Below, in pieces: positions 10,252-39,084 of a stretch of 43,989 bases of DNA (the stretch's first letter is position 1; each line of letters starts with the position of its first letter). The notes under the pieces are model-generated. The model saw only the letters and a program-made list of their open reading frames with translations, made no database searches and had not been told where the DNA came from. Position numbers and translations under genes: made by a program. This DNA is from a virus. The stretch covers positions 1 through 43,989 of IMG/VR virus record IMGVR_UViG_3300036670_000255; one strand, given 5' to 3'.

Positions 10252-10271
10252 AAAAGGGCGCAAGCCCTTTT
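10252..10271. terminator. Bidirectional terminator between sheath and the minus-strand endonuclease
   Basis: AAAAGGGC-GCAA-GCCCTTTT, an 8-bp stem with a GCAA tetraloop and A/T tails on both sides, between convergent genes. It overlaps the endonuclease stop codon. Confidence 0.85.
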
Positions 10272-11805
10272 ATTTTGAGTTCCATTCCCATTTGCTACTA
10301 CCCGAATCCCAGATCTTGTTATATCCCTGTAGATACCGGTTCTGCGACTCAGATAACAAGGGATCATCCAATTTATTTTTTCTTAGATTAAATCTATGTA
10401 TCCTGCTGGTGGTGTTTTGCGGGATATACCAATAATTTGGAGTTCCACTGGAAGTTTTGGCGAATCCCAGAGTTGAATATATACCACCGACACTCCAGCG
10501 ATTGTCAGAATATGATACAACCTGAGTTGGTGCATGCAATTGTATGAATTTTTTAAATAATCTACTGGCACCACCCACCACTTGAATATTAATTTTGGAA
10601 CAAAATCTATTCAATTCCCATCCAACTATTTTTCTTGACAAATTAGATTTGGAAAAAGTCATCACTGAAATCAATTGATTATCAAAGTAGAGTCCCAGGC
10701 GCTCGTTGCTGCGGCCGCTGCCCATGATATGATTTTGATTGCAAAACTCTGCTGCCTGGCGACTGGTCACCAGCTGGATCACACATTTTCTAGCATATAC
10801 TACTGTTTGAGTTTTTGCCAATAAATTTGTTATTCGACTTTTGACTATATCCTGTGCAGTAGCCCATTCGTCTTCGAAAATTTGTATGAGTCGTATACCA
10901 TGAGTCTGGGCCTGCTGCTGTTTGATAAAATCCTTGGTCTTGGGTTGATTATTGGCCAGCAGCACCTGTTCAGAATGCCAGTACAATCCATTAAATTCCA
11001 GTCCCAGTTTTAGTCTGGGAATGAATATATCAATTTCTTTGCTATGGTATCTGGGACGATATGATTGAATTGCAGTGGGTTCCAATGATTGAACAAACTC
11101 AAACAACTCTGTTTCAGGCTTACTCACTGTGTATGTCCGTGGAAAACAAGTGGGGCACATGGAAGTTTTAAATTTACTGGGCTGAAAATATTGTTTAGTA
11201 AACGAAAACTCAGTACTGCATTTGTTGCACTGTAATTGAAAATTAGCGTCAGTGACTGAGTTGATGAGTGTGAGCCCCAGCTGGTGAATTTTAGCTATTA
11301 TTTCAAAATTTGTTGCAGTGGATTTCTTTAAGTTAGTACTACGGATAGTTTCGCTACTTTTTTGCTTGGACACAGTGGTCTGTGACTTACCACGCATGGG
11401 TGATCCAAAATCATAACCAGCCGCTGTTTTGGTGGCCACTGCTTTTTTAGTACGTGCACGCATGGCTTCAGGATTAGCCGCTGTGTATGCCAGCTGCTGC
11501 GCCCGTAGCACTGCCCGTTGCTCTTCTGTTTTGGCCTGACCGCGACTGAACTCACCGCTTTGATAGCGAGCCTCGCGACGCTGGATTCTCTGGTGCAGTT
11601 TGGCCAGCTGCACTGGGTCTGTCAGTTTGATTCCCTTGTTGTGTGGTACCCTATCAGTGAATTTTTTCAGAGTCTCCTCACTGTACACTGTACCGTGTGC
11701 TGCTCGGTAGTCAGCACCAGATATACCATGGGTTCTCAGATGTTGCCAGGGTATGATTTTGGGAAAAGTTAAGTTGCATATCTTGCAGGTAATTGACATC
11801 GCCAT
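10270..11805 (-). CDS. Vsr-like (EDxHD-type) homing endonuclease with zinc fingers
   Basis: 511 residues. A C2H2 finger opens the protein (C7, C10, H22, H26), followed by basic NUMOD-like helices (KGKSQTT-type repeats, 60-165), a CxxC...CxxC ribbon (C193, C196, C217, C220) and a Vsr/very-short-patch-like nuclease core: KEIDIFIPRLKLGLEFNG (256-273), W276-H277 and LIQIFEDEW (306-314). This layout is known for phage free-standing homing endonucleases that cut conserved genes. It is inserted between gp18 and gp19 on the opposite strand, an exact place where T4-like genomes usually have nothing. Its start has an AAAGGAT ribosome site and a late-type GTAAATAC upstream. It contains many CAGTG/CACTG words like its neighbours, so it is probably an old resident. 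Confidence 0.75.
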   Translation of the reverse strand: MAMSITCKICNLTFPKIIPWQHLRTHGISGADYRAAHGTVYSEETLKKFTDRVPHNKGIKLTDPVQLAKLHQRIQRREARYQSGEFSRGQAKTEEQRAVLRAQQLAYTAANPEAMRARTKKAVATKTAAGYDFGSPMRGKSQTTVSKQKSSETIRSTNLKKSTATNFEIIAKIHQLGLTLINSVTDANFQLQCNKCSTEFSFTKQYFQPSKFKTSMCPTCFPRTYTVSKPETELFEFVQSLEPTAIQSYRPRYHSKEIDIFIPRLKLGLEFNGLYWHSEQVLLANNQPKTKDFIKQQQAQTHGIRLIQIFEDEWATAQDIVKSRITNLLAKTQTVVYARKCVIQLVTSRQAAEFCNQNHIMGSGRSNERLGLYFDNQLISVMTFSKSNLSRKIVGWELNRFCSKINIQVVGGASRLFKKFIQLHAPTQVVSYSDNRWSVGGIYSTLGFAKTSSGTPNYWYIPQNTTSRIHRFNLRKNKLDDPLLSESQNRYLQGYNKIWDSGSSKWEWNSK

Positions 11806-19070: not shown

Positions 19071-19586
19071 TTATAACCCCAGATATATATTCCAGCTGGG
19101 ATGATTTATATGCACTGACCTGATTTTCCATTTTTTTACCAGATTATAGTAATCTGGCTTGCATGGTACATTCAGTGGCTTCCATAATTTATGTCCTTTT
19201 TTACCATTGCAGGCAATGCATGAACTTGCACAATTTTCCCAATTGGTCACACCACCATCCTTGCGCGGTACCACGTGATCAATGGTCAGCAGTTTGTGGT
19301 CAAAGGTACCACCGCAGTACTGGCACTGGTACATGTCTCGTAGATACAAATTGGCTCTGCTGAACTTTACTGCCTTTTTATGACTAAAATAATCCTTGGT
19401 CACTGCCACGGCTGGCGCGTACATGGTAATATGCTCGCTGCGCAGTGGTATATTATCGTAAACCTCCAGGATTTCGATTTTCTTCAAAAAGAACAGCTTC
19501 ATTGCATGTTGCCAATCTATCACACTCAGTGGGAGTATGGATATGGGTAGCATATCACGATTTAGGAGAAGAGTGCCGGTGCTCAT
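19071..19586 (-). CDS. HNH endonuclease (McrA-like family)
   Basis: 171 residues from ATG 19586, chosen because the conserved family begins LLLNRDMLPISILPLSVIDW; the open frame extends 22 codons further without conservation. The HNH core is CQYCGGTF (C88, C91), DHVVPRKDGG (D103-H104), NWEN and CIAC (C123, C126) binding zinc. This family is widespread in bacteria and phages. It lies tail to tail with the head operon and back to back with the terminase gene; its sigma70 promoter overlaps the gp17 start region. It may be a homing nuclease acting near the intein-bearing terminase, or a packaging-associated HNH as in other phages. Confidence 0.82.
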   Translation of the reverse strand: MSTGTLLLNRDMLPISILPLSVIDWQHAMKLFFLKKIEILEVYDNIPLRSEHITMYAPAVAVTKDYFSHKKAVKFSRANLYLRDMYQCQYCGGTFDHKLLTIDHVVPRKDGGVTNWENCASSCIACNGKKGHKLWKPLNVPCKPDYYNLVKKWKIRSVHINHPSWNIYLGL

Positions 19587-19623
19587 GATATTAGTATAGG
19601 AATAATTGACTGATGAATGTATA

Positions 19624-19652
19624 AGTATACAATACCTGGAACAATAAGTCAA
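19624..19652 (-). promoter_or_regulatory. Sigma70-type promoter for the HNH gene
   Basis: On the minus strand TTGACT (19652-19647), a 17-base spacer and TATACT (19629-19624). It lies 38 bases upstream of the HNH start, abutting the gp17 ATG on the other strand. Confidence 0.65.
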
Positions 19653-19654: not shown

Positions 19655-20056
19655 ATGAGCGATAATGAATTTATAAGACGTGCCCATCAGAATATCAGCA
19701 TGACTGATGAGCAGACCGTGGAGTTTGTGAAATGCTGTGACCCAGTGGATGGTTATCGATACTTCATGACCACTTACTTTTATATACAGCATCCCACCAA
19801 GGGCAAGCTGTTATACGACCCATATGAATTCCAGGATAGGCTGATTGACAATTACCATGCCAACCGATTTAGTATCTCAATGATGCCTCGTCAAACGGGG
19901 AAATGTCTTACAGAAAGTATAACTATAACTATACGCAATAACATCACTGGCAAGCAGTATAGTTTACCCATAGGACTATTTTATGAATTTAACCAAGCAA
20001 AAAGAGACGGGACTACTATGCCAGAAATCTCAGGATATGAAATTAAAAGCATATAA
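19655..20056 (+). CDS. 17: Large terminase gp17, N-terminal part fused to intein N-fragment
   Basis: 133 residues. Residues 1-83 are the start of gp17, ending in MPRQTGK, the first part of the Walker A motif. Residue 84 is Cys, beginning an intein N-terminal block (CLTESITITIRNN), which continues 50 residues to a TAA. Removing the intein joins RQTGK to TTSAGG at 20546, giving an uninterrupted Walker A, so the insertion site is exact. The gp17 ATPase packages DNA through the portal; without splicing it has no P-loop. Whether this is a genuine split-gene half or the front of a frameshifted single gene is discussed in findings. Confidence 0.85.
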   Translation: MSDNEFIRRAHQNISMTDEQTVEFVKCCDPVDGYRYFMTTYFYIQHPTKGKLLYDPYEFQDRLIDNYHANRFSISMMPRQTGKCLTESITITIRNNITGKQYSLPIGLFYEFNQAKRDGTTMPEISGYEIKSI

Positions 20057-20545
20057 GCAGCTAATATGCAGATGTGGTACAGAGTTCCATGCGACCGGGT
20101 CAACTAGCAAGTTTTGCTCAGTTCTCACAGTGTGGGAAACTGACTATAAACAAAATAAAGAAAAAGTGATTCAAGAATGCATAAACTTTCTGACCAAATA
20201 GAACGGAAGTTCACTGATGTGATTCCATTAAATGAATGGGACATTTTGACTGATACCGGTTGGGCTCCATTGGTGGACATAAAACAAACCATCAAATATG
20301 AAGTCTATGACCTGGAGTTGGCCAACGGTTATAAATTATCAGGGGCAGACACACATATTATGTTTGATGCCAATCTAGACGAGGTATTTATTAAGGATCT
20401 CATCATTGGGTCAGTGGTTATAACAGATGCAGGCCCAGTCAATGTATCGATGATTAGACAGACTGGTGAATCACAGCATATGTACGATGTAGGGGTTGAT
20501 TCCGAGAATCATAGATTCTACTCCAATGGTATACTCAGCCACAAT
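19904..20545 (+). mobile_element. Intein in the gp17 Walker A motif, in non-continuous reading frames
   Basis: Starts with Cys1 (19904) and ends with SHN (20545) before Thr+1. Block A is in the first frame; a zinc-ribbon-like piece (CRCGTEF...SKFC, 20064-20117) lies in another frame (19983-20201); then the first frame again carries KYEVYDLELANG, block B ADTHIMFD (near 20351) and the C-terminal blocks DSENHRFYSNGILSHN. The protein reads through if one A is removed near 20045-20048 and one is added near 20173-20177. The break between blocks A and B is the same position at which the known AceL-TerL and related atypical split inteins are divided. No LAGLIDADG or HNH domain is visible inside. Confidence 0.8.
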
Positions 20546-21859
20546 ACCACCAGTGCTGGTGGCTATTTACTATGGTATGCCATGTTTGTTCCTGACAGTA
20601 CTATTCTAATTGCAGCGCACCAGTACAGCGGCGCCCAGGAAATCATGCAGCGTATCAGATACGCATACGAAATGTGCCCCATGTGGCTTAAAGCTGGTAC
20701 AGAGGCGTACAATCAGGGAAATATTGACTTTGACAACAAGAGTCGTATAGTAGCACGTGCCACCACTGAAAAAACTGGCCGTGGTATGTCATTATCACTG
20801 TTATATCTGGATGAATTTGCCTTTGTTAGGCCCACTATTGCCAAGGAATTTTGGGCTGCCATCAGTCCCACACTCAGCACTGGTGGTAAATGCATTATTA
20901 CCAGTACACCCAATAGCGACGAAGATCAATTTTCCCTGCTGTGGAAGGGGGCAAATAAAAAAATTGATGAATTTGGCATGCCAACTGAGTTGGGGGTAAA
21001 TGGATTCAGCCCATTCATATCACACTGGGCAGAGCACCCAGATCGGGATGAGACCTGGGCAACAGCAGAGCGTGGTAGAATTGGGGATGAACGATTCAGG
21101 CGTGAGCATGGGTTGGAGTTCTTAATTTTTGATGAGACACTGATATCACCCACTACGCTGATTGAAATGGCAGGGATCGACCCAGTGGAAAAACAGGGAC
21201 AGGTCAGATGGTTCAAGCGCCCAGCACGTGGTAACACCTATATGGTGGGACTGGACCCCAGCATGGGCACTGGTGGTGACCCTGCTGCCATACAGATACT
21301 GGAATTACCATCACTAATGCAAGTGGGTGAGTGGCAGCATAACAAAACTCCCATACAGCGGCAGGTCATTATTCTCAAAGAAGTCACTGAATACATCTAT
21401 AATTTAGTTGGTGCAGATACTGACATATACTATAGTGTGGAAAATAACTCTCTGGGCGAGGCGGCGCTGGTTACCATACAGCAAATTGGGGAAGAGAATA
21501 TACACGGAGTTTTTCTGTCAGAACCCAGTAAACCTGGCCAGCCTCGCAGGGGACGCAAGGGATTCAATACCACGCAGCGAACCAAGCTGGCAGTGTGCGC
21601 CAAGGCCAAGAGTTTAATAGAGCATAAAAAACTTAGAATAGCCAGTAAGAATTTAATCAGTGAACTCAAGAATTTTGTGGCCAGCGGTGGTAGCTATGCT
21701 GCAAAAATTGGTGAAACTGATGATCTGGTGATGTCGCTGATGCTGGTAATACGTATGACTCAGGCACTACAAGCATACGATGCCAACCTAGATGAGTTGA
21801 TGAAGGACAGTGAGCAGGATTATTTACAGCCCATGCCTTTTATTATGTCATCTTACTAG
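20177..21859 (+). CDS. 17: Intein C-fragment fused to large terminase gp17, main part
   Basis: 560 residues. Residues 1-123 are intein (block B, and C-terminal HN). From 20546 the gp17 ATPase resumes: TTSAGGYLLWYAM, LIAAHQYSGAQEIMQRI, the Walker B strand SLLYLDEFAF, the coupling motif ITSTPN, and the nuclease domain with GLDPSMGTGGDPAA (metal-binding Asp), a central VENNSLGEAAL and C-terminal DDLVMSLML. gp17 powers headful packaging and cuts concatemers. The ATG at 20177 has only a weak purine-rich stretch upstream (AAGAAAAAG), so independent translation of this half is possible but not compelling. It ends 50 bases before the next small late gene. Confidence 0.9.
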   Translation: MHKLSDQIERKFTDVIPLNEWDILTDTGWAPLVDIKQTIKYEVYDLELANGYKLSGADTHIMFDANLDEVFIKDLIIGSVVITDAGPVNVSMIRQTGESQHMYDVGVDSENHRFYSNGILSHNTTSAGGYLLWYAMFVPDSTILIAAHQYSGAQEIMQRIRYAYEMCPMWLKAGTEAYNQGNIDFDNKSRIVARATTEKTGRGMSLSLLYLDEFAFVRPTIAKEFWAAISPTLSTGGKCIITSTPNSDEDQFSLLWKGANKKIDEFGMPTELGVNGFSPFISHWAEHPDRDETWATAERGRIGDERFRREHGLEFLIFDETLISPTTLIEMAGIDPVEKQGQVRWFKRPARGNTYMVGLDPSMGTGGDPAAIQILELPSLMQVGEWQHNKTPIQRQVIILKEVTEYIYNLVGADTDIYYSVENNSLGEAALVTIQQIGEENIHGVFLSEPSKPGQPRRGRKGFNTTQRTKLAVCAKAKSLIEHKKLRIASKNLISELKNFVASGGSYAAKIGETDDLVMSLMLVIRMTQALQAYDANLDELMKDSEQDYLQPMPFIMSSY

Positions 21860-26072: not shown

Positions 26073-26696
26073 ATGTATCAATCCTATGTATATAAATTAA
26101 CAAACAAAGTAACTGGGCAATTTTACTTTGGGTCAAGAACTGGGAATGTTCGAAAATGCCGTAATCCAGAGGACGATTTGTGGATTTATTATTTCTCTTC
26201 GTCACGCAAAGTCAAAGAATTGATAGAAGAACACGGGATTAATATGTTTGTAGTCGAGATATTATCTAGACACGATGATTATGAAAGTTGTTTTTGGGCT
26301 GAACAACATTTAATATTACTTCACAAATTTAATTCTTTAAGATTAAACAAAGCTTATGTCGACCCAGTTACTGGTAAAAAAGTTCTAACAACACATGGAG
26401 AATCAGTGGAGCAAAAGGAAACCCGAATAAGTAAAATGAGTAAAACGAAAAAAGGCAAGTTTAACTCCAATGGCCATTTCGGAATGAAACACACTGCAGA
26501 AACTAAAGAGAAAATAGCAAAACAAGCCGGGTGGAAACATTCGGACGAAGCTAAAGAAAAAATGAAGGCGTATGTGAGAACGCCAGATCACGCTGCAAAA
26601 CTTGGAAATTCACTTAAAGGCAAACCTTGGTCTGAAGCAAGAAGAGCAGTACAACTTAATAAAAAGGAAAATAATCATGGCCGGACGCCCATTTGA
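26073..26696 (+). CDS. GIY-YIG homing endonuclease (Seg-like)
   Basis: 207 residues. The GIY-YIG domain opens the protein with YVYKLTNKVTGQFYFGSRTG (5-24; here VYK and YFG), then the catalytic Glu context WAEQHLI. The C-terminus is a basic NUMOD-type DNA-binding region with two KHTAETKEKIAK/KHSDEAKEKMKA repeats, as in T4 Seg proteins. It sits between gp32 and uvsX and its last 20 bases overlap the uvsX start, so the insertion left uvsX with a new upstream. It has few CAGTG words compared with its neighbours, suggesting recent arrival. Confidence 0.85.
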   Translation: MYQSYVYKLTNKVTGQFYFGSRTGNVRKCRNPEDDLWIYYFSSSRKVKELIEEHGINMFVVEILSRHDDYESCFWAEQHLILLHKFNSLRLNKAYVDPVTGKKVLTTHGESVEQKETRISKMSKTKKGKFNSNGHFGMKHTAETKEKIAKQAGWKHSDEAKEKMKAYVRTPDHAAKLGNSLKGKPWSEARRAVQLNKKENNHGRTPI

Positions 26697-27768
26697 CGTA
26701 TCAAAATTTCGCAAGACAATCACCAAGAGCATTGAAGGGTTATCAGCTGGATTCAGTGATCCTACTGACTGGATCAGCACCAACAACTATGCATTGAACT
26801 ATCTGATCAGTGGATCATTTACCAAAGGTGTCCCGCTGGGCAAAGTAACTGTATTTGCTGGAGAGTCAGGTGCAGGCAAGAGTTATATTTGTTCTGGTAA
26901 TCTGGTAAAAAATGCGCAGGCCAATGATATCTTTCCAATCCTGATCGATACTGAAAATGCACTGGATGAGAAATGGCTGCATGCACTGGGGGTGGACACC
27001 AGTGAGGAGAAGTTGCTTAAACTGAATTTGGCCATGATCGATGATGTGGCTAAATTAATCAGTGAATTTGTCAAAGAGTACAAGACCATGCCCGAGGATA
27101 GCCGCCCCAAGGTGTTGTTCATTATTGACAGTCTGGGTATGTTACTTACTCCCACTGATGTTAAACAATTTGAGGCTGGCGATATGAAGGGTGATATGGG
27201 TCGTAAGCCCAAGGCACTGACCAGCCTGGTGCGTAACTGTGTAAACATGTTTGGCAGTTTGAACCTGGGCATGGTGGTAACCAATCACACATATGCCAGC
27301 CAGGATATGTTTGATCCTGATGACAAGATCAGTGGTGGACAGGGATTTATCTATGCCAGCAGCATCGTGGTGGCCATGCGCAAGCTTAAATTAAAAACTG
27401 ACGCAGACGGTAACAAGACCACCACTGTCAATGGTATTCGTGCATCCTGCAAGATCATGAAGACGCGATACGCCAAGCCTTTTGAGAGTGTGCAGGTCGA
27501 AATTCCATACGAGACAGGTATGAGTCCTTACTCAGGGCTCACTGATATGTTTGAGTCCAAGAAACTGTTGGCCAAGGAAGGTAATAGCCTGGTATTCAGC
27601 TTTGCAGATGGCACCAGTATCAAGAAGTTCCGCAAAGGTTGGGAACAAAATGATGATGGCTGCTTGGATCGTGCCATGGCTGAATACACGGCTCGTCCAC
27701 CAGTGGAACGTGCACCATTGGCCATGGCTGATGTAGTTGTTGACTCAATTGAAGAAACAGTAGAGTAA
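26677..27768 (+). CDS. uvsX: UvsX recombinase (RecA family)
   Basis: 363 residues from ATG 26677, chosen because AAAAGGAAA precedes it and the protein then begins MAGRPFDVSKFRKTI; the open frame continues upstream only through the GIY-YIG gene. Walker A is GESGAGKS (62-69), Walker B LFIIDSLGML with D151, and the L2/DNA-binding region VTNHTYASQ...ISGGQGF follows. It forms the presynaptic filament for strand exchange and recombination-dependent replication, with gp32 and UvsY. T4 UvsX is 391 residues. A hairpin follows the gene. Confidence 0.95.
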   Translation: MAGRPFDVSKFRKTITKSIEGLSAGFSDPTDWISTNNYALNYLISGSFTKGVPLGKVTVFAGESGAGKSYICSGNLVKNAQANDIFPILIDTENALDEKWLHALGVDTSEEKLLKLNLAMIDDVAKLISEFVKEYKTMPEDSRPKVLFIIDSLGMLLTPTDVKQFEAGDMKGDMGRKPKALTSLVRNCVNMFGSLNLGMVVTNHTYASQDMFDPDDKISGGQGFIYASSIVVAMRKLKLKTDADGNKTTTVNGIRASCKIMKTRYAKPFESVQVEIPYETGMSPYSGLTDMFESKKLLAKEGNSLVFSFADGTSIKKFRKGWEQNDDGCLDRAMAEYTARPPVERAPLAMADVVVDSIEETVE

Positions 27769-32260: not shown

Positions 32261-32335
32261 CCGGTGTTCGTTCAATGGACAGGACAGCTTTCTCCTAAAG
32301 AGCCAATGTAGGTTCGATTCCTATACACCGGACCA
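32261..32335 (+). tRNA. tRNA-Arg(CCT)
   Basis: Acceptor CCGGTGT/ACACCGG, D-stem GTTC/GGAC, anticodon stem GCTTT/AGAGC with loop CTCCTAA (anticodon CCT), T-loop TTCGATT; CCA encoded. First gene of the array. Confidence 0.9.
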
Positions 32336-32361
32336 GGGCTTAAATATAATTACTGGATAGT

Positions 32362-32390
32362 TTGACTAATAATTATATTTAAACTATACT
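32362..32390 (+). promoter_or_regulatory. Sigma70-type promoter
   Basis: TTGACT, 17-base AT-rich spacer, TATACT. Confidence 0.6.
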
Positions 32391-32432
32391 GATATTCAAT
32401 TGTTTTTAACATTTATACAAGCTAATAAATAT

Positions 32433-32461
32433 TTGACAGTTAAATAAATTTAACTTATAAT
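32433..32461 (+). promoter_or_regulatory. Consensus sigma70 promoter of the tRNA region
   Basis: TTGACA, 17-base spacer, TATAAT. The spacer GTTAAATAAATTTAACT is shared almost base for base with the promoters at 32568 and 35325. A short frame MQQLEGWDD (32524-32553) lies downstream. Confidence 0.8.
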
Positions 32462-32523
32462 ATAGAATAAATAATTAGGTATTAACGCAAGTAAGTACAA
32501 AATAATTTTTGATTGGTAAATAT

Positions 32524-32553
32524 ATGCAACAATTAGAAGGATGGGATGATTAA
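32524..32553 (+). other. Nine-codon ORF ending in the EGWD motif
   Basis: Reads MQQLEGWDD then TAA. Its last 14 bases (AGAAGGATGGGATG) and following TTAAA recur at the end of the 54-residue ORF at 32681, which ends EGWDG. No clear ribosome site. The surrounding stretch 32336-32680 holds no larger gene, only three promoters. Confidence 0.35.
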
Positions 32554-32567
32554 AGGTCACCAGCAAG

Positions 32568-32596
32568 TTGACAGTTAATTAAATTTAACTTATACT
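32568..32596 (+). promoter_or_regulatory. Consensus sigma70 promoter
   Basis: TTGACA, 17-base spacer (GTTAATTAAATTTAACT), TATACT. Drives the 54-residue ORF at 32681. Confidence 0.78.
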
Positions 32597-32680
32597 AATG
32601 ATAACAGTGAATAACACGGCAATTTTGCTGTATATTCATAGATATTTAAAAGAAAAGATAAATAAATATAGTAACACATT

Positions 32681-32845
32681 ATGAAAAACTTTACAGTCAT
32701 TAAGAATTCACAGCAACCACATGCATGCATGCCGTTATGGCAATCAGAAGGTATGGGTCTTGCGGCGGAATCTACCCCGGTAATTGATAATACCATTAAT
32801 GGCAGAAGTTATAGTGTCAGGGTTCGAGAAGGATGGGATGGTTAA
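32681..32845 (+). CDS. Small protein of unknown function ending EGWDG
   Basis: 54 residues (starts MKNFTVIKNSQQ, ends VRVREGWDG). It is flanked by a consensus promoter 85 bases upstream and a terminator 20 bases downstream, so it forms its own transcription unit inside the tRNA array. Small phage early proteins with a conserved acidic/Trp C-terminus often bind a host factor, but no family is recognised. The C-terminal EGWD motif is repeated in the mini-ORF at 32524. Confidence 0.6.
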   Translation: MKNFTVIKNSQQPHACMPLWQSEGMGLAAESTPVIDNTINGRSYSVRVREGWDG

Positions 32846-32865
32846 ACATTTCCATAAACTTTAAG

Positions 32866-32898
32866 AACCCTAGCACTAAACAAGTCCTAGGGTTTTTT
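32866..32898 (+). terminator. Rho-independent terminator
   Basis: AACCCTAG pairs with CTAGGGTT across 13 bases, followed by TTTT. Confidence 0.85.
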
Positions 32899-32899
32899 C

Positions 32900-33073
32900 A
32901 TGTGTTCCACAAGGAATAACAAGATTAGTAAGAAAATTAAACAGCAAGAGCAATGGACTTCACAGTTCACGCTAACACAGGAACAGCTTAACCGCATGTT
33001 ACAGGAAAAGTTAGATCGGACGAAGCAGTACAGTTTGGGCGCCCAGCGTCTGGAAAATTTGCGTCTTGCATGA
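32900..33073 (+). CDS. Small basic hypothetical protein
   Basis: 57 residues, rich in Gln, Lys and Arg (KISKKIKQQEQW, LTQEQLNRMLQEKLDR), likely a helical hairpin. The ATG lies within the U-tract of the preceding terminator and there is no good ribosome site, so the start or the gene itself is uncertain. Confidence 0.4.
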   Translation: MCSTRNNKISKKIKQQEQWTSQFTLTQEQLNRMLQEKLDRTKQYSLGAQRLENLRLA

Positions 33074-33216
33074 AGTGAAAAAGTGCGTGGGTAACGAGGA
33101 CCATCCCCAGGGATAACACCGCACTCTAAATATGTTGTAAACGGGCGTATCTGGGGCATAAAATTCATGCTGATAACATGAAGAGTCAGAACCAGGTTAG
33201 GGTAAAACCCTAACAT

Positions 33217-33245
33217 AATCAGTTGCTGCTTCACAGCGACTGGTT
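33217..33245 (+). other. 12-bp hairpin upstream of the second tRNA block
   Basis: AATCAGTTGCTG and CAGCGACTGGTT pair over 12 positions (three G-T) around CTTCA, followed by ATTTTAAAAC; a second inverted repeat (ATTTTAAAACA / TGTTTTAAAAT) follows at 33246-33281. Terminator or processing signal. The stretch 33074-33216 contains no gene I can support. Confidence 0.5.
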
Positions 33246-33284
33246 ATTTTAAAACATATTTGTATCAGTGTGTTTTAAAATAAT

Positions 33285-33361
33285 GGTCAGGTAGTATTAT
33301 GGGAAATACGCTATCTTCATAAGATAGAAAGAAGAGAGTTCGAATCTCCCCCAGACCACCA
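33285..33361 (+). tRNA. tRNA-Met(CAT), elongator or Ile2
   Basis: Anticodon stem CTATC/GATAG with loop TTCATAA; D-stem GTAT/ATAC; T-loop TTCGAAT; CCA encoded. Acceptor GGTCAGG/CCAGACC has one A-A mismatch. CAT could be Met or lysidine-modified Ile. Confidence 0.82.
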
Positions 33362-33370
33362 AAGTTTATT

Positions 33371-33455
33371 GGAGATGGAAAGCTGATGGCTTCAGCAACG
33401 AGTCTGTAAAACTCGTCTTTTATCGGGAGTGGATCGAAACCACACATCTCCACCA
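33371..33455 (+). tRNA. tRNA-Tyr(GTA)
   Basis: Acceptor GGAGATG/CATCTCC, anticodon stem CGAGT/ACTCG, loop CTGTAAA (GTA), long class II variable arm, CCA encoded. Confidence 0.88.
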
Positions 33456-33457
33456 GT

Positions 33458-33531
33458 GCATCTGTAGTTTAATGGTCAAACAGCGGATTTCCAATCCTCA
33501 GTTGAGAGTTCGATTCTCTCCAGATGCTCCA
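33458..33531 (+). tRNA. tRNA-Gly(TCC)
   Basis: Acceptor GCATCTG/CAGATGC, anticodon loop TTTCCAA (TCC), T-stem GAGAG/CTCTC, CCA encoded. A second Gly(TCC) lies at 37555. Confidence 0.88.
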
Positions 33532-33537
33532 TATATT

Positions 33538-33612
33538 GCATTCTTAGCTCAGAGGCGGAGCAGCGCCGTTACATGGCGAAGGTCGAGATTTCAAAATTCT
33601 CAGAATGCACCA
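33538..33612 (+). tRNA. tRNA-Val(TAC)
   Basis: Acceptor GCATTCT/AGAATGC, D-stem GCTC/GAGC, anticodon loop GTTACAT (TAC) on CGCC/GGCG, CCA encoded; T-arm is degenerate (T-T at its last pair). Confidence 0.82.
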
Positions 33613-33617
33613 GTTAT

Positions 33618-33691
33618 CTCCGTGTAGTGAAATGACATCACTCTGCGTTTGGGACGCAGTAGCGCAGGTTTGATTCCTGCCACGGAGACCA
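33618..33691 (+). tRNA. tRNA-Pro(TGG)
   Basis: Acceptor CTCCGTG/CACGGAG, D-stem GTGA/TCAC, anticodon CTGCG/CGCAG with loop TTTGGGA (TGG), CCA encoded. Confidence 0.88.
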
Positions 33692-33697
33692 GGATCA

Positions 33698-33771
33698 GCG
33701 TGGTTAGTTTAATGGTAAAATATCACATTGCCAATGTGATGTCAGGAGCTCGATTCTCCTACCCCGCACCA
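33698..33771 (+). tRNA. tRNA-Gly(GCC)
   Basis: Anticodon stem TCACA/TGTGA, loop TTGCCAA (GCC); acceptor GCGTGGT/ACCCCGC with one mismatch; CCA encoded. Confidence 0.87.
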
Positions 33772-33781
33772 AATATTATCA

Positions 33782-33866
33782 GTGGGTATGGAGAAATTGG
33801 TTAGACCCAGTAGACTTAAAATCTACCGCCTGGTGCATGCTGGTTCGAGTCCAGTTACCCACACCA
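33782..33866 (+). tRNA. tRNA-Leu(TAA)
   Basis: Acceptor GTGGGTA/TACCCAC, anticodon GTAGA/TCTAC with loop CTTAAAA (TAA), class II variable arm, CCA encoded. Confidence 0.88.
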
Positions 33867-33875
33867 GTTTTATAC

Positions 33876-33947
33876 ACCGTGATAGCTCTCTGGGAGAGCC
33901 ACACACTGTCCATGTGTTGTAGGCGGGTTCGATTCCCGTTCACGGTG
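33876..33947 (+). tRNA. tRNA-Asp(GTC)
   Basis: Acceptor ACCGTGA/TCACGGT with discriminator G, D-stem GCTC/GAGC, anticodon ACACA/TGTGT with loop CTGTCCA (GTC). No CCA encoded (CCC follows). Confidence 0.87.
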
Positions 33948-33978
33948 CCCTTGAGTTTGCGCTTTTAGCGTCGAACTA

Positions 33979-33986
33979 TATAAATA
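33979..33986 (+). promoter_or_regulatory. T4-type late promoter for the GIY-YIG gene in the array
   Basis: Exact TATAAATA, 27 bases before ATG 34014, with AAGAAG between. Confidence 0.65.
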
Positions 33987-34013
33987 AACATAAGAAGAAC
34001 TATTAAGATACTT

Positions 34014-34736
34014 ATGTTTTATTTAATTTACAAAATAACCAATATTGTTAACAACAAAATTTATATAGGTTCCCATAGGACCAAAAATAAAAATGACAAG
34101 TATATGGGGTCTGGTAAATATCTAAATTATGCTATTAAAAAGCACGGCTTAGATAAGTTTACAAAAGAAATTCTATTTGAATTTGACAACGCTAAAGATA
34201 TGTATAGTAAAGAAGCAGAAATCGTAAATGACGATTTTTTATCTGATGAAAATACATATAATTTAAAGAGAGGTGGCTCTGGCGGATTTGATTACATTAA
34301 CTCAAGAGGGCTAGCAATGAACTCTGAGCACGGCAAATTAGGAGCAATCAGAACTAATGAGTTAAGAAAATCTGACCCAATTCTAGATAAAAAATTAAAA
34401 GATGTTTCTGCTGCAAATCTCAAAGCAGCACACAAGGCTGGTCTTATCAAATACGATACTTTTACTGGTAAGAATCATTCTCCCGAATCTAAGAAAAAAA
34501 TAGGAGAAGCAAACAGTAATAATCGAGGTATTAAAAATTCTCAATTTGGTACTATATGGATTACAAATGGTATTGAAAATAAAAAAATAAAATCAGATCT
34601 TTCCATCCCAGATGGGTGGTATAAAGGTCGCAAGTTTCGGGGAATTAGCTCATTTGGGAGAGCGACGGATTTGCAATTCGTAGGTGATCAGTTCGAAACT
34701 GATATTCTCCACCAAGTCATTACCGGACCGGCGTAA
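34014..34736 (+). CDS. GIY-YIG homing endonuclease overlapping a tRNA gene
   Basis: 240 residues. GIY-YIG domain at the start (FYLIYKITNIVNNKIYIGSH, 2-21), GSGKYLNYAIKKHG, catalytic Glu context SKEAEIV, then basic NUMOD-like helices (NHSPESKKKIGEAN). From about residue 209 on the frame runs through the tRNA-Ala gene at 34639-34714, so the C-terminal 30 or so residues are tRNA sequence read as protein. AT-rich and free of the CAGTG word that fills the phage genes, which suggests recent entry. Free-standing nucleases of this type usually cut in or beside the tRNA genes they flank. Confidence 0.82.
   Translation: MFYLIYKITNIVNNKIYIGSHRTKNKNDKYMGSGKYLNYAIKKHGLDKFTKEILFEFDNAKDMYSKEAEIVNDDFLSDENTYNLKRGGSGGFDYINSRGLAMNSEHGKLGAIRTNELRKSDPILDKKLKDVSAANLKAAHKAGLIKYDTFTGKNHSPESKKKIGEANSNNRGIKNSQFGTIWITNGIENKKIKSDLSIPDGWYKGRKFRGISSFGRATDLQFVGDQFETDILHQVITGPA
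34639..34714 (+). tRNA. tRNA-Ala(TGC), inside the 3' end of the GIY-YIG ORF
   Basis: Acceptor GGGGAAT/ATTCTCC, D-stem GCTC/GAGC, anticodon ACGGA/TTCGT with loop TTTGCAA (TGC), T-stem ATCAG/CTGAT, CCA encoded. Fully overlapped by the nuclease reading frame. The stretch 34715-34836 that follows has no gene I can support. Confidence 0.87.
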
Positions 34737-34836
34737 CCCGGGATGTATTGCAGACGAAATGATCAGTGTACTGCGGTATGCCTGCATAGGCTGGAGTGGA
34801 AGGACCACAATGCAACAGGTTTTTTAAGCATTATAC

Positions 34837-34910
34837 TGGGGGTTAGTTAAATGGTATAACCGCGGATTTTGATTCCGCTGTTGCAAGTTCGATTCTTGCA
34901 CCCTCTGCCA
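34837..34910 (+). tRNA. tRNA-Gln(TTG)
   Basis: Anticodon GCGGA/TCCGC with loop TTTTGAT (TTG), discriminator G, CCA encoded; acceptor TGGGGGT/ACCCTCT with T-T at the end, in line with the weak first pair of tRNA-Gln. Confidence 0.85.
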
Positions 34911-35039
34911 ATTTTTACGTGGGCTGTGGATCCTGTCAAGAACTGGGTTCACACCTGTCGCAGTATTAATCTAGGTTGATTACCACTGACATGAATTAAA
35001 AATAATCATTGCTCAGTGGACCAAACTAAATACTACAAT

Positions 35040-35124
35040 GGAAGACTCCCGTAACAGTATTGAAGTGACTTGCTGGGCCCTTGGTCAGTTAAATGACTTT
35101 GCGGTTTGAGTCAGTGGTCTTCCG
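35040..35124 (+). pseudogene. Degenerate tRNA-like relic (class II)
   Basis: GGAAGAC at 35040 pairs perfectly with GTCTTCC at 35117; TGACT/GGTCA could be an anticodon stem but with a 12-base loop, and the T-arm does not close. Looks like a decayed Ser- or Leu-type tRNA. The flanking 34911-35039 has no other gene. Confidence 0.4.
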
Positions 35125-35133
35125 ACAAATACA

Positions 35134-35207
35134 GCCCCTCTAGTTAAATGGTATAACTCCTGTTTAGTAATCAGGCATCGGCAGTTCGATTCTGTCGAGG
35201 GGCACCA
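35134..35207 (+). tRNA. tRNA-Thr(AGT)
   Basis: Acceptor GCCCCTC/GAGGGGC, D-stem GTTA/TAAC, anticodon loop TTAGTAA (AGT), T-loop TTCGATT, CCA encoded. Clearly a paralogue of the Thr(TGT) gene at 36145; the first anticodon base differs (A for T). Confidence 0.85.
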
Positions 35208-35226
35208 ACGTGATGAGAACTTGGGT

Positions 35227-35297
35227 GTGGCCATAACTTAATGGCAAAGTCGTGGATTGTGATTCCGCTTATCTGAGTTCAATTCTCAGTGGCCACC
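35227..35297 (+). tRNA. tRNA-His(GTG)
   Basis: Acceptor GTGGCCA/TGGCCAC, discriminator C (typical of His), anticodon GTGGA/TCCGC with loop TTGTGAT (GTG), T-stem CTGAG/CTCAG. No CCA. Flanks AACTTGGG and CCCAAGTT extend the acceptor helix. Confidence 0.87.
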
Positions 35298-35324
35298 CCC
35301 AAGTTTTCCACCAGGGCACTGTAT

Positions 35325-35353
35325 TCGACAGTTAATTAAATTTAAGTTATAAT
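35325..35353 (+). promoter_or_regulatory. Sigma70 promoter of a short RNA
   Basis: TCGACA, 17-base spacer GTTAATTAAATTTAAGT, TATAAT; nearly identical to the promoters at 32433 and 32568. Confidence 0.75.
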
Positions 35354-35359
35354 AAACAC

Positions 35360-35437
35360 ATGGCAGCAGGAAAGCAACACGATAAGTAACCAACAGGTAT
35401 TTGAACTAATCAATTTGAGGATCCCCCAAATTGTTTT
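35360..35437 (+). ncRNA. Putative small RNA with own promoter and terminator
   Basis: Expected start about 7 bases after the -10 box at 35348-35353; ends in the terminator at 35411. About 78 nt. Its only reading frame is a nine-codon MAAGKQHDK that begins at the transcription start. Function unknown. Confidence 0.45.
35411..35437 (+). terminator. Terminator of the short RNA
   Basis: CAATTTG pairs with CAAATTG, extended by GG/CC, followed by TTTT. Confidence 0.75.
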
Positions 35438-35446
35438 AAATAATGC

Positions 35447-35475
35447 TTTACTTATATTAGGTTTAATGCTATAAT
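35447..35475 (+). promoter_or_regulatory. Sigma70-type promoter before the three-hairpin RNA
   Basis: TTTACT, 17-base spacer, TATAAT, preceding the hairpin block by about 60 bases. Confidence 0.6.
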
Positions 35476-35536
35476 GTATGCATACCAACTAACCATCGTG
35501 TTATTTGGCAGGTTCTTTAACAACTAATAGTAACTA

Positions 35537-35648
35537 CCTTGTATGGTACAAGGGGTTATATTCAACGCCATTGGCCGTCGGACCCTGAAACTGTCCCACG
35601 CCATCAGTGCAGCGTTGAATATAATTACCAGAATTAATAACTCTGGTA
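35537..35648 (+). ncRNA. Three-stem structured RNA
   Basis: Three adjacent hairpins: CCTTGTA-TGG-TACAAGG (35537-35553); a 13-bp stem TTATATTCAACGC/GCGTTGAATATAA (35556-35568 with 35612-35624) enclosing a second irregular stem with GGAC/GTCC; and TACCAGA/TCTGGTA (35626-35648). It is not a tRNA and encodes no protein. T4 has two stable non-tRNA RNAs (species 1 and 2) in its tRNA cluster; this could be an analogue. Confidence 0.6.
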
Positions 35649-35675
35649 TTATTTGCGGGAGTCATGACCCGTGGA

Positions 35676-35750
35676 ACTCGGGTGGTCCAATAGTCAAGAC
35701 ATATCCTCTAGTAGGGATAGATGGTAGTTGCAAATCTACCCCCAATGAGT
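35676..35750 (+). pseudogene. Cloverleaf-like relic
   Basis: Four arms can be drawn: ACTCGGG with CCC(AAT)GAGT, D-like GTC/GAC, TATCC/GGATA with an 8-base loop TCTAGTAG, and GGTAG/CTACC with loop TTGCAAAT. The bulged acceptor and 8-base loops make a working tRNA doubtful. Confidence 0.35.
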
Positions 35751-35884
35751 TCGCATGTTAACGTATATTTCCTGAGTCGGTATCACTACTGGCATGTCAC
35801 GCACCATGGAGTTTGATTCATGGGAATAACAGTATATTTTAACATGCTAAATGAAATATTGATAATGCAAGTTAAAAGGATAAG

Positions 35885-35940
35885 AGCAGATACTGGTATT
35901 TGATCCCAGGTGGGAAGAAGTATCGCCGTTAGTATCTGCT
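35885..35940 (+). other. 10-bp stem with inner hairpin before tRNA-Ser
   Basis: AGCAGATACT (35885-35894) pairs perfectly with AGTATCTGCT (35931-35940); the 36-base interior contains CCCA/TGGG. Possibly a processing signal or relic. Confidence 0.45.
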
Positions 35941-35949
35941 GCGTTTTAT

Positions 35950-36036
35950 GGAGAGTTGGCCGAGCGGCAAGGCAATGGATTGCTAATCCATCACTGGGCA
36001 ACCGGTGGATAGGTTCGACTCCTATACTCTCCACCA
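35950..36036 (+). tRNA. tRNA-Ser(GCT)
   Basis: Acceptor GGAGAGT/ACTCTCC, anticodon ATGGA/TCCAT with loop TTGCTAA (GCT), long variable arm, T-loop TTCGACT, CCA encoded. Confidence 0.9.
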
Positions 36037-36061
36037 TATTTAAGATACATACTGTTATTTG

Positions 36062-36137
36062 ATCTCTATACGTCAATGGATCAGACTACCCGTCTTCGAA
36101 ACCGGTAATCCAGGTTCGAGTCCTGGTAGAGATACCA
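36062..36137 (+). tRNA. tRNA-Arg(TCG)
   Basis: Acceptor ATCTCTA/TAGAGAT, D-stem GTC/GAC, anticodon loop CTTCGAA (TCG) on CCCGT/ACCGG, T-stem CCAGG/CCTGG, CCA encoded. Confidence 0.85.
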
Positions 36138-36144
36138 CATTTTT

Positions 36145-36218
36145 GCCCCTCTAGTTAAGTGATATAACACCTGTTTTGTAATCAGGTATCGGCAGTTTGA
36201 TTCTGTCGAGGGGCACCA
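36145..36218 (+). tRNA. tRNA-Thr(TGT)
   Basis: Acceptor GCCCCTC/GAGGGGC, anticodon loop TTTGTAA (TGT), T-loop TTTGATT, CCA encoded. Paralogue of Thr(AGT) at 35134. Confidence 0.87.
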
Positions 36219-36238
36219 CAATCATCGTGACACATATA

Positions 36239-36309
36239 GTTGGCCTGACGGAGAAGTTAGGCACTAGTCTGCAAAACTGGCAAGATGGGAGCGTTACCCG
36301 TGGCCAACT
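36239..36309 (+). tRNA. tRNA-Cys(GCA)
   Basis: Acceptor GTTGGCC/GGCCAAC, anticodon CTAGT/ACTGG with loop CTGCAAA (GCA), no CCA. D- and T-arms are weak. Flanking CACATATA/TACATGTG lengthen the acceptor helix with one mismatch. Confidence 0.75.
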
Positions 36310-36340
36310 ACATGTGACCTATGATCCAGCAAAAGAAAAA

Positions 36341-36414
36341 ATCTCTATAGTTTAAAGGAAGAACACCGGCCTTTCACGTCGGCGATGCGATGTCAGGATT
36401 CGCTAGAGATACCA
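36341..36414 (+). tRNA. tRNA-Glu(TTC)
   Basis: Acceptor ATCTCTA/TAGAGAT, D-stem GTTT/GAAC, anticodon CCGGC/GTCGG with loop CTTTCAC (TTC), CCA encoded; T-loop atypical (GTCAGGA). Confidence 0.78.
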
Positions 36415-36421
36415 AATTTAT

Positions 36422-36451
36422 TCCCTTGTAGCTCAGTTGGTAGAGCACACC
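36422..36451 (+). pseudogene. 5' half of a broken tRNA (Asn-like)
   Basis: Acceptor TCCCTTG, TA, D-arm GCTC-AGTTGGTA-GAGC identical to the D-arm of tRNA-Asn(ATT) at 38301, then it breaks off at the anticodon stem. The matching acceptor strand CAAGGGA-G-CCA is 840 bases away at 37292-37302. Confidence 0.6.
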
Positions 36452-36467
36452 ATAAATTTAGTTTTAT

Positions 36468-36550
36468 TCCACGAGAGCCGCCGGGTGTGGCAGCAGACTG
36501 TTAATCTGTGTCGAAAGACTAGCTGGGTTCGAGTCCTAGTCGTGGAGCCA
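36468..36550 (+). tRNA. tRNA-Asn(GTT) with a long variable arm
   Basis: Acceptor TCCACGA/TCGTGGA, discriminator G, anticodon GCAGA/TCTGT with loop CTGTTAA (GTT), CCA encoded. The variable arm holds a GTC-GAAA-GAC hairpin, unusual for Asn. Nested between two halves of a broken tRNA. Confidence 0.78.
36512..36533 (+). repeat. Direct repeat, copy 1 (22 identical bases; copy 2 at 37264-37285)
   Basis: Covers the variable arm and T-loop start of tRNA-Asn. The ACTGTT anticodon segment lies exactly 15 bases upstream in both copies, and GGAGCCATTGA follows in both. Confidence 0.9.
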
Positions 36551-36552
36551 TT

Positions 36553-36560
36553 GATAAATA
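36553..36560 (+). promoter_or_regulatory. Late promoter variant 5 nt before a start codon
   Basis: GATAAATA, five bases before ATG 36566 of the HNH gene, no Shine-Dalgarno. Confidence 0.5.
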
Positions 36561-36565
36561 TCTAT

Positions 36566-37195
36566 ATGTATAAATGTATAGAATGTAGTAAATCTTTTGC
36601 CAGTATTATGGCACTAACTGGGCACAAAAGGATGCACGGAGGATCACAGGGCAAATCTAAAAAAATAGTTTGTTCTTGTTTGATTACTAGAAAAATAATG
36701 CCGTACCAGTATTTGGATCAATATCAATCAAAGTTAATTGGATGTAAACAATGTAGTAAGTTGTTTAATCCGACCGTAAATAGAACAACTTTTTGTTCTC
36801 AATCTTGTTCTGCTACTTGTAACAATACGATTCGACCCAAACGATTGAAGAAGGAAAAGCCTCCTAAAATTGTAAAAGAAAAGAAAGTGTATACTGAGCA
36901 GGAGAAGAAAGCGAAAAATGTTTCGGCAGTACAAGCATATAGGGCTAGGAAATATAGTGCAACTTTACCTAGTACTGATCGTAAACTTATTAACAAGATA
37001 TACGAAAGATGTCCTAAAGGATATGAAGTTGATCATATAATTGCACTAGCCGAAGGCGGTGCTCATCACCAAGACAATTTGCAATATCTTCCTGCTATGG
37101 AAAATAGAAGAAAGAATAGAACACAGAATTATAATAAAGATCTTGCAATACGTTGGGAAATCAGTTCTATTGGGGAATTGCCTAGTCCGGTCTAA
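36566..37195 (+). CDS. HNH homing endonuclease with C2H2 zinc finger
   Basis: 209 residues from ATG 36566; the open frame extends upstream only through the tRNA. An N-terminal C2H2 finger (C4, C7, H20, H24), a second CKQCSKLF...FCSQSC zinc element, a basic linker, and a C-terminal HNH: CPKGYEVDHIIALAEGGAHH, DNLQYL, ENRRKN. AT-rich with essentially none of the CAGTG words typical of the phage. It lies between the halves of a broken tRNA-Asn and follows an intact tRNA-Asn. Confidence 0.82.
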   Translation: MYKCIECSKSFASIMALTGHKRMHGGSQGKSKKIVCSCLITRKIMPYQYLDQYQSKLIGCKQCSKLFNPTVNRTTFCSQSCSATCNNTIRPKRLKKEKPPKIVKEKKVYTEQEKKAKNVSAVQAYRARKYSATLPSTDRKLINKIYERCPKGYEVDHIIALAEGGAHHQDNLQYLPAMENRRKNRTQNYNKDLAIRWEISSIGELPSPV

Positions 37196-37248
37196 GGCAA
37201 CGGTCTTAGGCGGACCCTTAAACCTCCCTGCCTACATAGTAGGTGGAA

Positions 37249-37302
37249 ACTGTTGGAACTACACGAAAGACTAGCTGGGTTCGAGCCGAGTCAAGGGAGC
37301 CA
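37249..37302 (+). pseudogene. 3' half of a broken tRNA-Asn, with repeat copy 2
   Basis: Begins ACTGTT (anticodon GTT), contains repeat copy 2 (37264-37285) and ends CAAGGGA-G-CCA, which pairs over 7 bp with TCCCTTG at 36422-36428. The T-stem no longer pairs. The rest of 37196-37474 holds no gene. Confidence 0.6.
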
Positions 37303-37474
37303 TTGAATCATGGAGCAACACGGTGTAATACCTGTGTTCCCAATCAAGTTTTGTATATGAGCCCGAAGATTGAGGGAGCCTTACGTGGGCGACAGACGAT
37401 TGAAATGATCTCCATATGCGCCAATTTTGTTATTTTGCACATTGTGCCAGGAGATAGAGTGCTACAATAATATT

Positions 37475-37548
37475 ACCAGTGTAATTCAATGATAGAATAA
37501 TCGACTGATAATCGATCTACGAAAGTTTGATTCTTTCCACTGGTACCA
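37475..37548 (+). tRNA. tRNA-Ile(GAT)
   Basis: Acceptor ACCAGTG/CACTGGT, D-stem ATTC/GAAT, anticodon ATCGA/TCGAT with loop CTGATAA (GAT), T-stem GAAAG/CTTTC, CCA encoded. Confidence 0.88.
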
Positions 37549-37554
37549 GGTTAT

Positions 37555-37626
37555 GCGGACTGTCAAAGGAGTACATCTGGCCTTCCAAGCCGGAACAGAG
37601 GATTTCGATCATCCTAGTCCGCTCCA
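37555..37626 (+). tRNA. tRNA-Gly(TCC), second copy
   Basis: Acceptor GCGGACT/AGTCCGC, anticodon CTGGC/GCCGG with loop CTTCCAA (TCC), T-stem AGGAT/ATCCT, CCA encoded. D-arm is short (TGT/ACA). Confidence 0.78.
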
Positions 37627-37632
37627 GTTTTT

Positions 37633-37706
37633 AGGCTTGACATGAACTGTGTTCATGCTGTTATGACATGACAGTTTAGGCAGTTAGATTCTGCACTAGC
37701 CCACCA
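37633..37706 (+). tRNA. tRNA-Val(GAC), degenerate
   Basis: Anticodon CTGTT/GACAG with loop ATGACAT (GAC), D-hairpin ATGAA/TTCAT, CCA encoded; the acceptor AGGCTTG/CTAGCCC has two mismatches and the T-loop is TTAGATT. May be inactive. Confidence 0.5.
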
Positions 37707-37797
37707 AGTTTTGTTAGCCCTAACAAATTTAGTTTATTCTCAGATCTAGATATTTTGATCAGCATGCACCAGCTGCATAAACACGTTGGATTACCAT

Positions 37798-38310
37798 ATG
37801 AAAATTTGCCCTAAGTGCAATGCGGGACACGAAAAGTCTGGAAAATACTGTTGTAGAAGTTGTGCCAATAGCAGAATATTTACCACGGAGGCCAAAGAAA
37901 AAAAACGAAATAAATCGTTATCATTTTGGTCACAGTATAATGCAGATGAAAGAAAAGAACTCCATAAAGAAAAGATGGGGTTATACGACTTTGATCATCA
38001 TCAAAAACAAGTACAACAGGCAAATAGGATGAGGGAGTGGAGTAAGCCCTACGAGGAAATGAGTCATCCGTCAGTTCGTAAAAGACTATTGCATGAACGA
38101 AACTACATCTGCGAAGAATGTGGTACAGGTAATACATATAACGGAAAGCCGCTAAGTCTAGAACTAGACCACAAAGACGGAAATAGTAAGAATAACAAAA
38201 TTGAAAATTTAAGAATACTTTGCCCTAACTGTCATTCACAAACTCCGACACATAGAGGAAAGAATATTAAATACAAAAGGTTGTTATTAGATAAGAATAT
38301 TGGCACATAG
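37798..38310 (+). CDS. HNH endonuclease ending inside tRNA-Asn(ATT)
   Basis: 170 residues from ATG 37798. An N-terminal CPKCNAGHEKSGKYCCRSC zinc ribbon, a basic helical middle, and a C-terminal zinc HNH: CEECGTG, LELDHKDGNSKNNKIENL, RILCPNCHSQTP. The stop codon TAG is the T8-A9-G10 of the following tRNA-Asn(ATT), so the gene abuts its likely target. AT-rich and lacking the CAGTG word, hence probably a recent arrival. Confidence 0.85.
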   Translation: MKICPKCNAGHEKSGKYCCRSCANSRIFTTEAKEKKRNKSLSFWSQYNADERKELHKEKMGLYDFDHHQKQVQQANRMREWSKPYEEMSHPSVRKRLLHERNYICEECGTGNTYNGKPLSLELDHKDGNSKNNKIENLRILCPNCHSQTPTHRGKNIKYKRLLLDKNIGT

Positions 38311-38376
38311 CTCAGTTGGTAGAGCGTTCGGTTATTAACCGAAATGTCCCTGGTTCGAGCCCAGGTTTGCCAGCCA
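38301..38376 (+). tRNA. tRNA-Asn(ATT)
   Basis: D-arm GCTC-AGTTGGTA-GAGC, anticodon TTCGG/CCGAA with loop TTATTAA (ATT), T-stem CCTGG/CCAGG, discriminator G, CCA encoded; acceptor TGGCACA/TTTGCCA with one mismatch. A34 is rare for Asn. Confidence 0.82.
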
Positions 38377-38459
38377 AATATATTACTCATGGGCCAGGTT
38401 CAGTGTAACCAGTCAGCAGAGGTCCTGGCACCAGGACTCCTGGAAAGTATTTAAAATTA

Positions 38460-38533
38460 CGCGGGTAGTGTGGCCAACAATCCAGTCTCATAAGCTAGGA
38501 TCATCGGGGGTTCGAATCCCTCACCCGCAACCA
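38460..38533 (+). tRNA. tRNA-Met(CAT), initiator-like
   Basis: Acceptor CGCGGGT/ACCCGCA with an unpaired C1-A72 as in bacterial initiator tRNA, loop CTCATAA (CAT), CCA encoded. It lacks the three G-C pairs in the anticodon stem that initiators have, so role is uncertain. Two hairpins without gene lie at 38385-38445. Confidence 0.75.
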
Positions 38534-38538
38534 TATAT

Positions 38539-38622
38539 GGAATATAGCAACGCTGGGCGTTAGACGGCTTTGAATACCGTGCCACTGGTGAAACGGTGAT
38601 AGTTCGATTCTATTATATTCCT
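38539..38622 (+). tRNA. tRNA-Ser(TGA)
   Basis: Acceptor GGAATAT/ATATTCC, D-hairpin AACGC-TGG-GCGTT, loop TTTGAAT (TGA), long variable arm, T-loop TTCGATT. No CCA; next tRNA starts two bases later. Confidence 0.82.
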
Positions 38623-38624
38623 CC

Positions 38625-38711
38625 GAAAGATAGAGAGCCTGGGGCTCCGGCAACTTGGAAAGTTGTTCCACTCTGCAAGGGGTGATGGTTCGATTCCATT
38701 ATTTTTCACCA
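38625..38711 (+). tRNA. tRNA-Ser(GGA)
   Basis: Acceptor GAAAGAT/ATTTTTC, D-hairpin GAGCC-TGG-GGCTC, anticodon GCAAC/GTTGT with loop TTGGAAA (GGA), long variable arm, CCA encoded. Confidence 0.83.
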
Positions 38712-38718
38712 AACTTCA

Positions 38719-38793: not shown

Positions 38794-38838
38794 GTACATG
38801 CACAATTTAGTGCAATTGCGCAGTGATTATACAGTTAG

Positions 38839-38846: not shown

Positions 38847-38888
38847 CTGATAGCATGTTACATACATGCGTTTAAACAAGGAAAAATT

Positions 38889-39065: not shown

Positions 39066-39084
39066 TCACTGGCGTAGGTCATGA

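Follow-up and report, generated by a model that had tools for sequence, protein, structure and literature searches.

The window analysed here is the whole of a 43,989-base contig of an IMG/VR virus (IMGVR_UViG_3300036670_000255), a T4-like phage by its tail sheath, tail tube, UvsX and UvsY genes. Its gp17-like terminase gene (TerL) carries an intein that is very probably a natural, trans-splicing one, split between blocks A and B and horizontally acquired, whose homing endonuclease gene (HEG) has decayed. What the locus shows is a mobile element late in its life, not a sequencing error. The sequences establish the split, the homology of all the pieces, the conserved overlaps between them, the endonuclease relic and the patchy distribution. 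The conserved frame geometry of this family makes the path by which inteins become split testable.

A split intein in the terminase P-loop

The intein is inserted exactly between GK and TT of the TerL P-loop, as an earlier note on this DNA had proposed. In nearly all close TerL relatives with both flanks, TT follows GK with no residue between them (gap 0), which confirms the assignment of the site; the C-extein is up to 73% identical to inteinless TerLs over its length. An essential motor gene would thus have an ATP site only once its product is spliced. Two open reading frames (ORFs) encode the halves, at 19655-20056 and, from an ATG start, at 20177-21859, and the stop, the start and the lengths of the two intein parts given earlier (50 and 123 residues) proved exact. 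The second intein part ends in LSHN and is followed by the extein TTSAGG. Both parts lie in the same frame with five in-frame stops between them; therefore this is not a continuous gene that was misread, and no pair of single-base indels is needed.

Both intein-N and intein-C match the profiles of the family described below. With Pfam alone the intein match was weak, and Rfam found no group I or group II intron family. Cys1, His60 (block B), Asp104 and His112 (block F), His122, Asn123 and Thr+1 are all present; His60, Asp104, His112, His122 and Asn123 are invariant in the closest set, and Cys1 occurs in every aligned intein-N row. As in naturally split class 1 inteins, two separate ORFs bear intein-N and intein-C with their exteins, and these residues fit the class pattern of Cys or Ser at position 1, a block B His, a block F Asp and His, a His-Asn end and Cys, Ser or Thr at +1. 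For structure prediction, the two parts were translated through the intervening stops, purely as a modelling device. The predicted fold is that of a HINT domain or intein, with both parts mostly at pLDDT >90 and the stretch between them <50. VidaL and gp41-1 were the top matches in the PDB, and the atypically split Cat was also matched.

An endonuclease relic and a conserved geometry

Three alignment scans together with phage records gave 209 loci, representing 113 distinct lineages (L-numbers are labels of the compared sequences); a single-protein scan with the window's intein-C had returned no match, but the alignment scan did find relatives. In most lineages the intein is split at the same place as in the window. 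Counted at >=200 HEG profile columns, 57 distinct split lineages whose gap contains an endonuclease have this split site; so do 19 that have none, some of them uncertain. Most family members also have a conserved C-part start, M-x-x-[LI]-S...RKF. In a second phage, L038, the intein is split at the same P-loop site and its C-part begins MNLSEKTNRKF, compared with MHKLSDQIERKF in the window. The comparison with TerL inteins of related phages that the earlier note had called for returned the same split intein at the same site, which supports its suggestion of a natural A/B split.

In the 57 lineages the gap is mostly ~0.8-1.4 kb long and holds an ORF in another frame. The heads of these HEGs often contain zinc ribbons or a ROS/MUCR-like finger and their ends match DUF559/MTES_1575, although a few gap ORFs end as GIY-YIG instead. 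The predicted fold of the L178 HEG (pLDDT 88) matched VSR (1vsr) with probability 1.00 and I-Bth0305I (3r3p) with 0.97, at E values of only 0.04-0.2. On this model and the DUF559 matches, the HEGs of the relatives have an EDxHD/VSR-like nuclease fold; the window keeps only the end of that domain. Placement is equally regular: the HEG starts inside the intein-N FY codons at a fixed offset of 4 or 7 nt in 30 lineages, and in 43 distinct split lineages its stop falls 25 nt past the point where the intein-C start codon begins.

The window shows the same geometry around a much shorter ORF (Table 1), whose ATG lies inside the intein-N FYE codons and whose stop keeps the 25-nt overlap with intein-C. 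This third frame matches HEG profile columns 350-376 (E 7e-11; E 4e-10 in a second profile search), and its tail is 57-71% identical to many full HEGs. Its zinc-ribbon head is 50% identical over 22 aa to the N terminus of the L153 HEG and identical at 10/10 positions to the L147 remnant. At a deletion junction near 20117-20123, this head is joined to the last 26 nuclease residues; ~300 internal HEG residues are missing and the HEG frame is kept. By homology, the third-frame piece is a HEG relic left by internal deletion, not an intein domain. The zinc-ribbon-like piece that the earlier note had seen is indeed in another frame, but as the head of the HEG remnant it does not represent an extra zinc domain. 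An early idea of a zinc ribbon within a contiguous intein, reached by three one-base shifts (FSQCGK after KFC), was rejected once full endonucleases showed the true frame.

Table 1 Features of the terminase locus in window coordinates
Feature	Position	Strand	Basis
TerL N-extein, 83 aa, ends MMPRQTGK (first half of P-loop)	19655..19903	+	aligns to inteinless TerLs up to K
Intein-N fragment, 50 aa, Cys1 (block A) to I50; stop TAA 20054-20056	19904..20056	+	intein-N profile, E 6e-16
HEG remnant, 72 codons, conserved start to conserved stop	19983..20201	+	HEG profile and geometry
Zinc-ribbon head of HEG (CRCG...SKFCS), in the remnant's frame	20067..20120	+	matches L153, L147
VSR-like C-terminal tail of HEG (VLTVWETDYKQNKEKVIQECINFLTK, stop)	20121..20201	+	HEG profile columns 350-376
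25-nt overlap of intein-C start codon and HEG stop	20177..20201	+	same overlap in 43 distinct HEG-keeping split lineages
Intein-C fragment of 123 aa with blocks B (ADTH), F (VDSENHRFY) and G (ILSHN)	20177..20545	+	profile match, predicted HINT fold
TerL C-extein from Thr+1 to the stop codon, with the remainder of the P-loop and the ATPase and nuclease domains	20546..21859	+	Terminase_6N, Terminase_6C

These comparisons bear on two explanations that would make the intein contiguous. The earlier note had considered that the intein might be continuous and only look broken, owing to single-base errors of sequencing or assembly at two places, near 20045 and 20175. One shift per side would join the three frames, and the flanking runs are A-rich. 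Yet the third frame ends as the tail of a free-standing endonuclease rather than as intein, and the succession of N-half stop, other-frame ORF and C-part start recurs in dozens of lineages and many assemblies, with the 25-nt overlap conserved; moreover, many members hold a whole endonuclease gene of ~1 kb between the proposed break points. We therefore regard such errors as extremely unlikely. Programmed double ribosomal frameshifting, yielding a contiguous intein with an internal zinc ribbon, is geometrically possible given that the three frames overlap. It would, however, require two shifts, and no sign was found that any member reads N-part, HEG and C-part as one protein. In relatives, moreover, the overlaps are accounted for by a separate gene, the HEG, which has its start and its stop there; we give this explanation next to no credence.

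The decay of the endonuclease might also be taken as a sign of a dead element, with intein and terminase both broken in a defective phage. Terminase is essential, however, and both halves retain all catalytic residues, their extein frames are intact, and the start typical of the split is preserved. Related inteins have also lost their endonuclease independently while their halves stayed intact, making a dead element very unlikely. Other decayed members are L139, L142, L147, L146, L208, L221, L326, L203 and L201, and in L152, L158 and L283 the N-half stop overlaps the C-half ATG by 8 nt. An intein-N extension, (A)KRDGTxxPxISxYE, is common to the window, L139, L147 and L138.

Under a naturally split, trans-splicing intein, two polypeptides would be made, TerL-N with the 50-aa intein-N and the 123-aa intein-C with TerL-C. 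The halves would assemble into a HINT fold and trans-splice through Cys1, Asn123 and Thr+1, which would give TerL a complete P-loop, RQTGKTT. A free-standing VSR-like HEG once occupied the gap, overlapping both halves in another frame, and an in-frame deletion of ~300 codons left the 72-codon ORF that ends 25 nt inside intein-C. If it does anything, this ORF probably couples translation of the C-half to upstream translation. Besides trans-splicing and this coupling, we infer past homing by the lost endonuclease.

Several observations weigh against this account. Block B has Ala (ADTH) where many inteins have Thr, although this Ala is found family-wide. Shine-Dalgarno-like sequences at C-part starts are weak (31/79). 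Of the 14 split lineages whose HEG has decayed but whose overlap stop persists, 8 are in frame (P 0.058, suggestive only), so selection for translation across the relic, or coupling, is suggested but not proven. Finally, the window is a single metagenomic contig, and a search with a degenerate pattern spanning the deletion scar turned up no other contig that carries it.

Overprinted and fused relatives

More surprising than the window itself are some of its relatives. Three separate clades (L151, L163, L164 and L171; L241, L244 and L248; L327) have the intein as one continuous ORF, the terminase-intein frame running stop-free through an intact endonuclease in another frame (for example, L164:1813-4662 and L171:1783-4656). 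Under synonymous permutation of the endonuclease codons, the overprinted frame of the full-length cases acquired a mean of 15-19 stops and a minimum of 5, compared with the 0 observed; the same test on the partial L151 gave P 0.0003. L164 and L171 share 62% identity in the endonuclease but only 31% in the alternate frame, suggesting that only the openness of the alternate frame is selected.

Each overprinted clade also contains fused inteins without an endonuclease (L170; L243 and L246; L169 and L177), and the linkers of these mini-inteins are out-of-frame endonuclease DNA remaining after deletion. In L246, a linker of the L170 lineage is combined with a different intein, which marks L246 as a recombinant or an assembly chimera.

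Across the family, the endonuclease is thus full, truncated, a relic or absent, or the intein is fused, mostly at one insertion site. Tentatively, and with slightly less than even confidence, we propose that the family cycles between states: in some clades a stop-free intein overlying an intact out-of-frame endonuclease, which would splice in cis with a meaningless linker of ~270 aa, and in most a stop-split state in which the HEG overlap would drive translation of the C-half. Loss of the HEG would lead to a split intein with a relic, like that of the window, or to a fused mini-intein, and A/B splits may thus arise and reverse through overlapping-gene geometry.

Known systems, mobility and neighbouring genes

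Fractured genes, attributed to Dassa et al. 2009, are reportedly phage genes with a split intein and a free-standing EDxHD/VSR-like HEG between the halves. Here too a split intein divides a phage gene, and the window's relatives have a VSR-like HEG between the halves. The window differs in its A/B split, its GK|T P-loop site, the conserved 25-nt overlap and in having an endonuclease relic only; with just 72 codons left, it is therefore a decayed member of this class. What is new here is the combination of the A/B split, P-loop site, Thr+1, overlap geometry and decayed endonuclease, the fractured-gene arrangement itself being already known. For protein engineering, the family adds dozens of new A/B-split inteins.

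VidaL (6vgv) is the closest solved fold to the window's model and among the closest inteins by sequence (E 0.005, ~26% identity). It is atypically split, with an intein-N much shorter than that of the window. The TerL mini-inteins of Ackermannviridae (VAP7, Kuja, Magnus and CRW-SP2) are homologous, at ~34-43% identity to the window, and occupy the same GK|TT site; unlike the window, they form one polypeptide and have no endonuclease relic. A/B splits such as those of AceL-TerL and GOS-TerL are classed as atypical, and these two inteins have Cys+1 and an intein-N of 25-37 aa (PMC11766414). AceL-TerL, GOS-TerL and Cat resemble the window in lying in TerL, split near the N terminus with a short intein-N, and its predicted fold matches Cat (6dsl). 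The link to AceL-TerL drawn in the earlier note thus stands as far as the A/B position of the break is concerned, but not for the +1 residue: compared by description rather than alignment, the window has Thr+1 and a 50-aa intein-N where AceL-TerL and GOS-TerL have Cys+1 and 25-37 aa. Given this +1 residue, the insertion site in the window's TerL probably differs from theirs. In ShiLan, an out-of-frame HNH endonuclease lies in a stop-free insertion (PMC11855218). L164, L171 and L241 likewise hide an endonuclease in another frame, but the ShiLan insertion has no splicing domain, whereas theirs is an intein.

Hosts of the family are mainly TerL and an SbcC/Rad50-like ATPase, with the intein at the P-loop GK|S/T (non-TerL names are read from extein starts). 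Inteins of the same family occupy apparent P-loops of helicase-like and Clp-like proteins in L331 and L334, again named from extein starts, which suggests repeated insertion of the family at GK|S/T motifs. TerL is also interrupted elsewhere. In Serratia phage 92A1 (L136:654-3616) an intein splits it at a different site, one followed by a C-extein Cys (CAEF), with an ORF between the halves; in Vibrio phage EniLVp02 (L135:1372-3658) the split precedes a C-extein Cys (CSFN), and the halves overlap with no ORF between them. Both are isolated phages and handy for bench tests. L087:3800-4900 and L125:2500-3050 have a TerL P-loop without an intein and an intein at a downstream ...SN|CEF site, and in L087 the insert contains an HNH-like ORF as well, read in a different frame.

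The window's TerL nests among inteinless genes, being 86% identical over the first 190 C-extein residues to the inteinless L048 and 71% to its nearest intein-bearing counterpart, which argues for recent horizontal gain. Its intein-C is ~55% identical to its closest relatives. On these comparisons the insertion is sporadic and probably horizontally acquired. An HNH gene at 19071-19652 (minus strand), divergent from terL, was considered as a collaborative-homing partner and rejected; it occupies the same place in >35 inteinless relatives and is therefore a stable neighbour, unlinked to the intein.

Elsewhere in the window, 22 predicted tRNA genes at 32261-40350, among them some with the unusual anticodons AGT (Thr) and ATT (Asn), are interspersed with endonuclease-like ORFs (34014-34736, 36437-37195 and 37786-38310). 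Another homing-endonuclease-like ORF (26073-26696) extends into the first part of the UvsX-like recombinase ORF (26602-27768), and a 511-aa homing endonuclease (PHROG 3339/559; 10270-11805, minus strand) lies between the tail sheath and tail tube genes.
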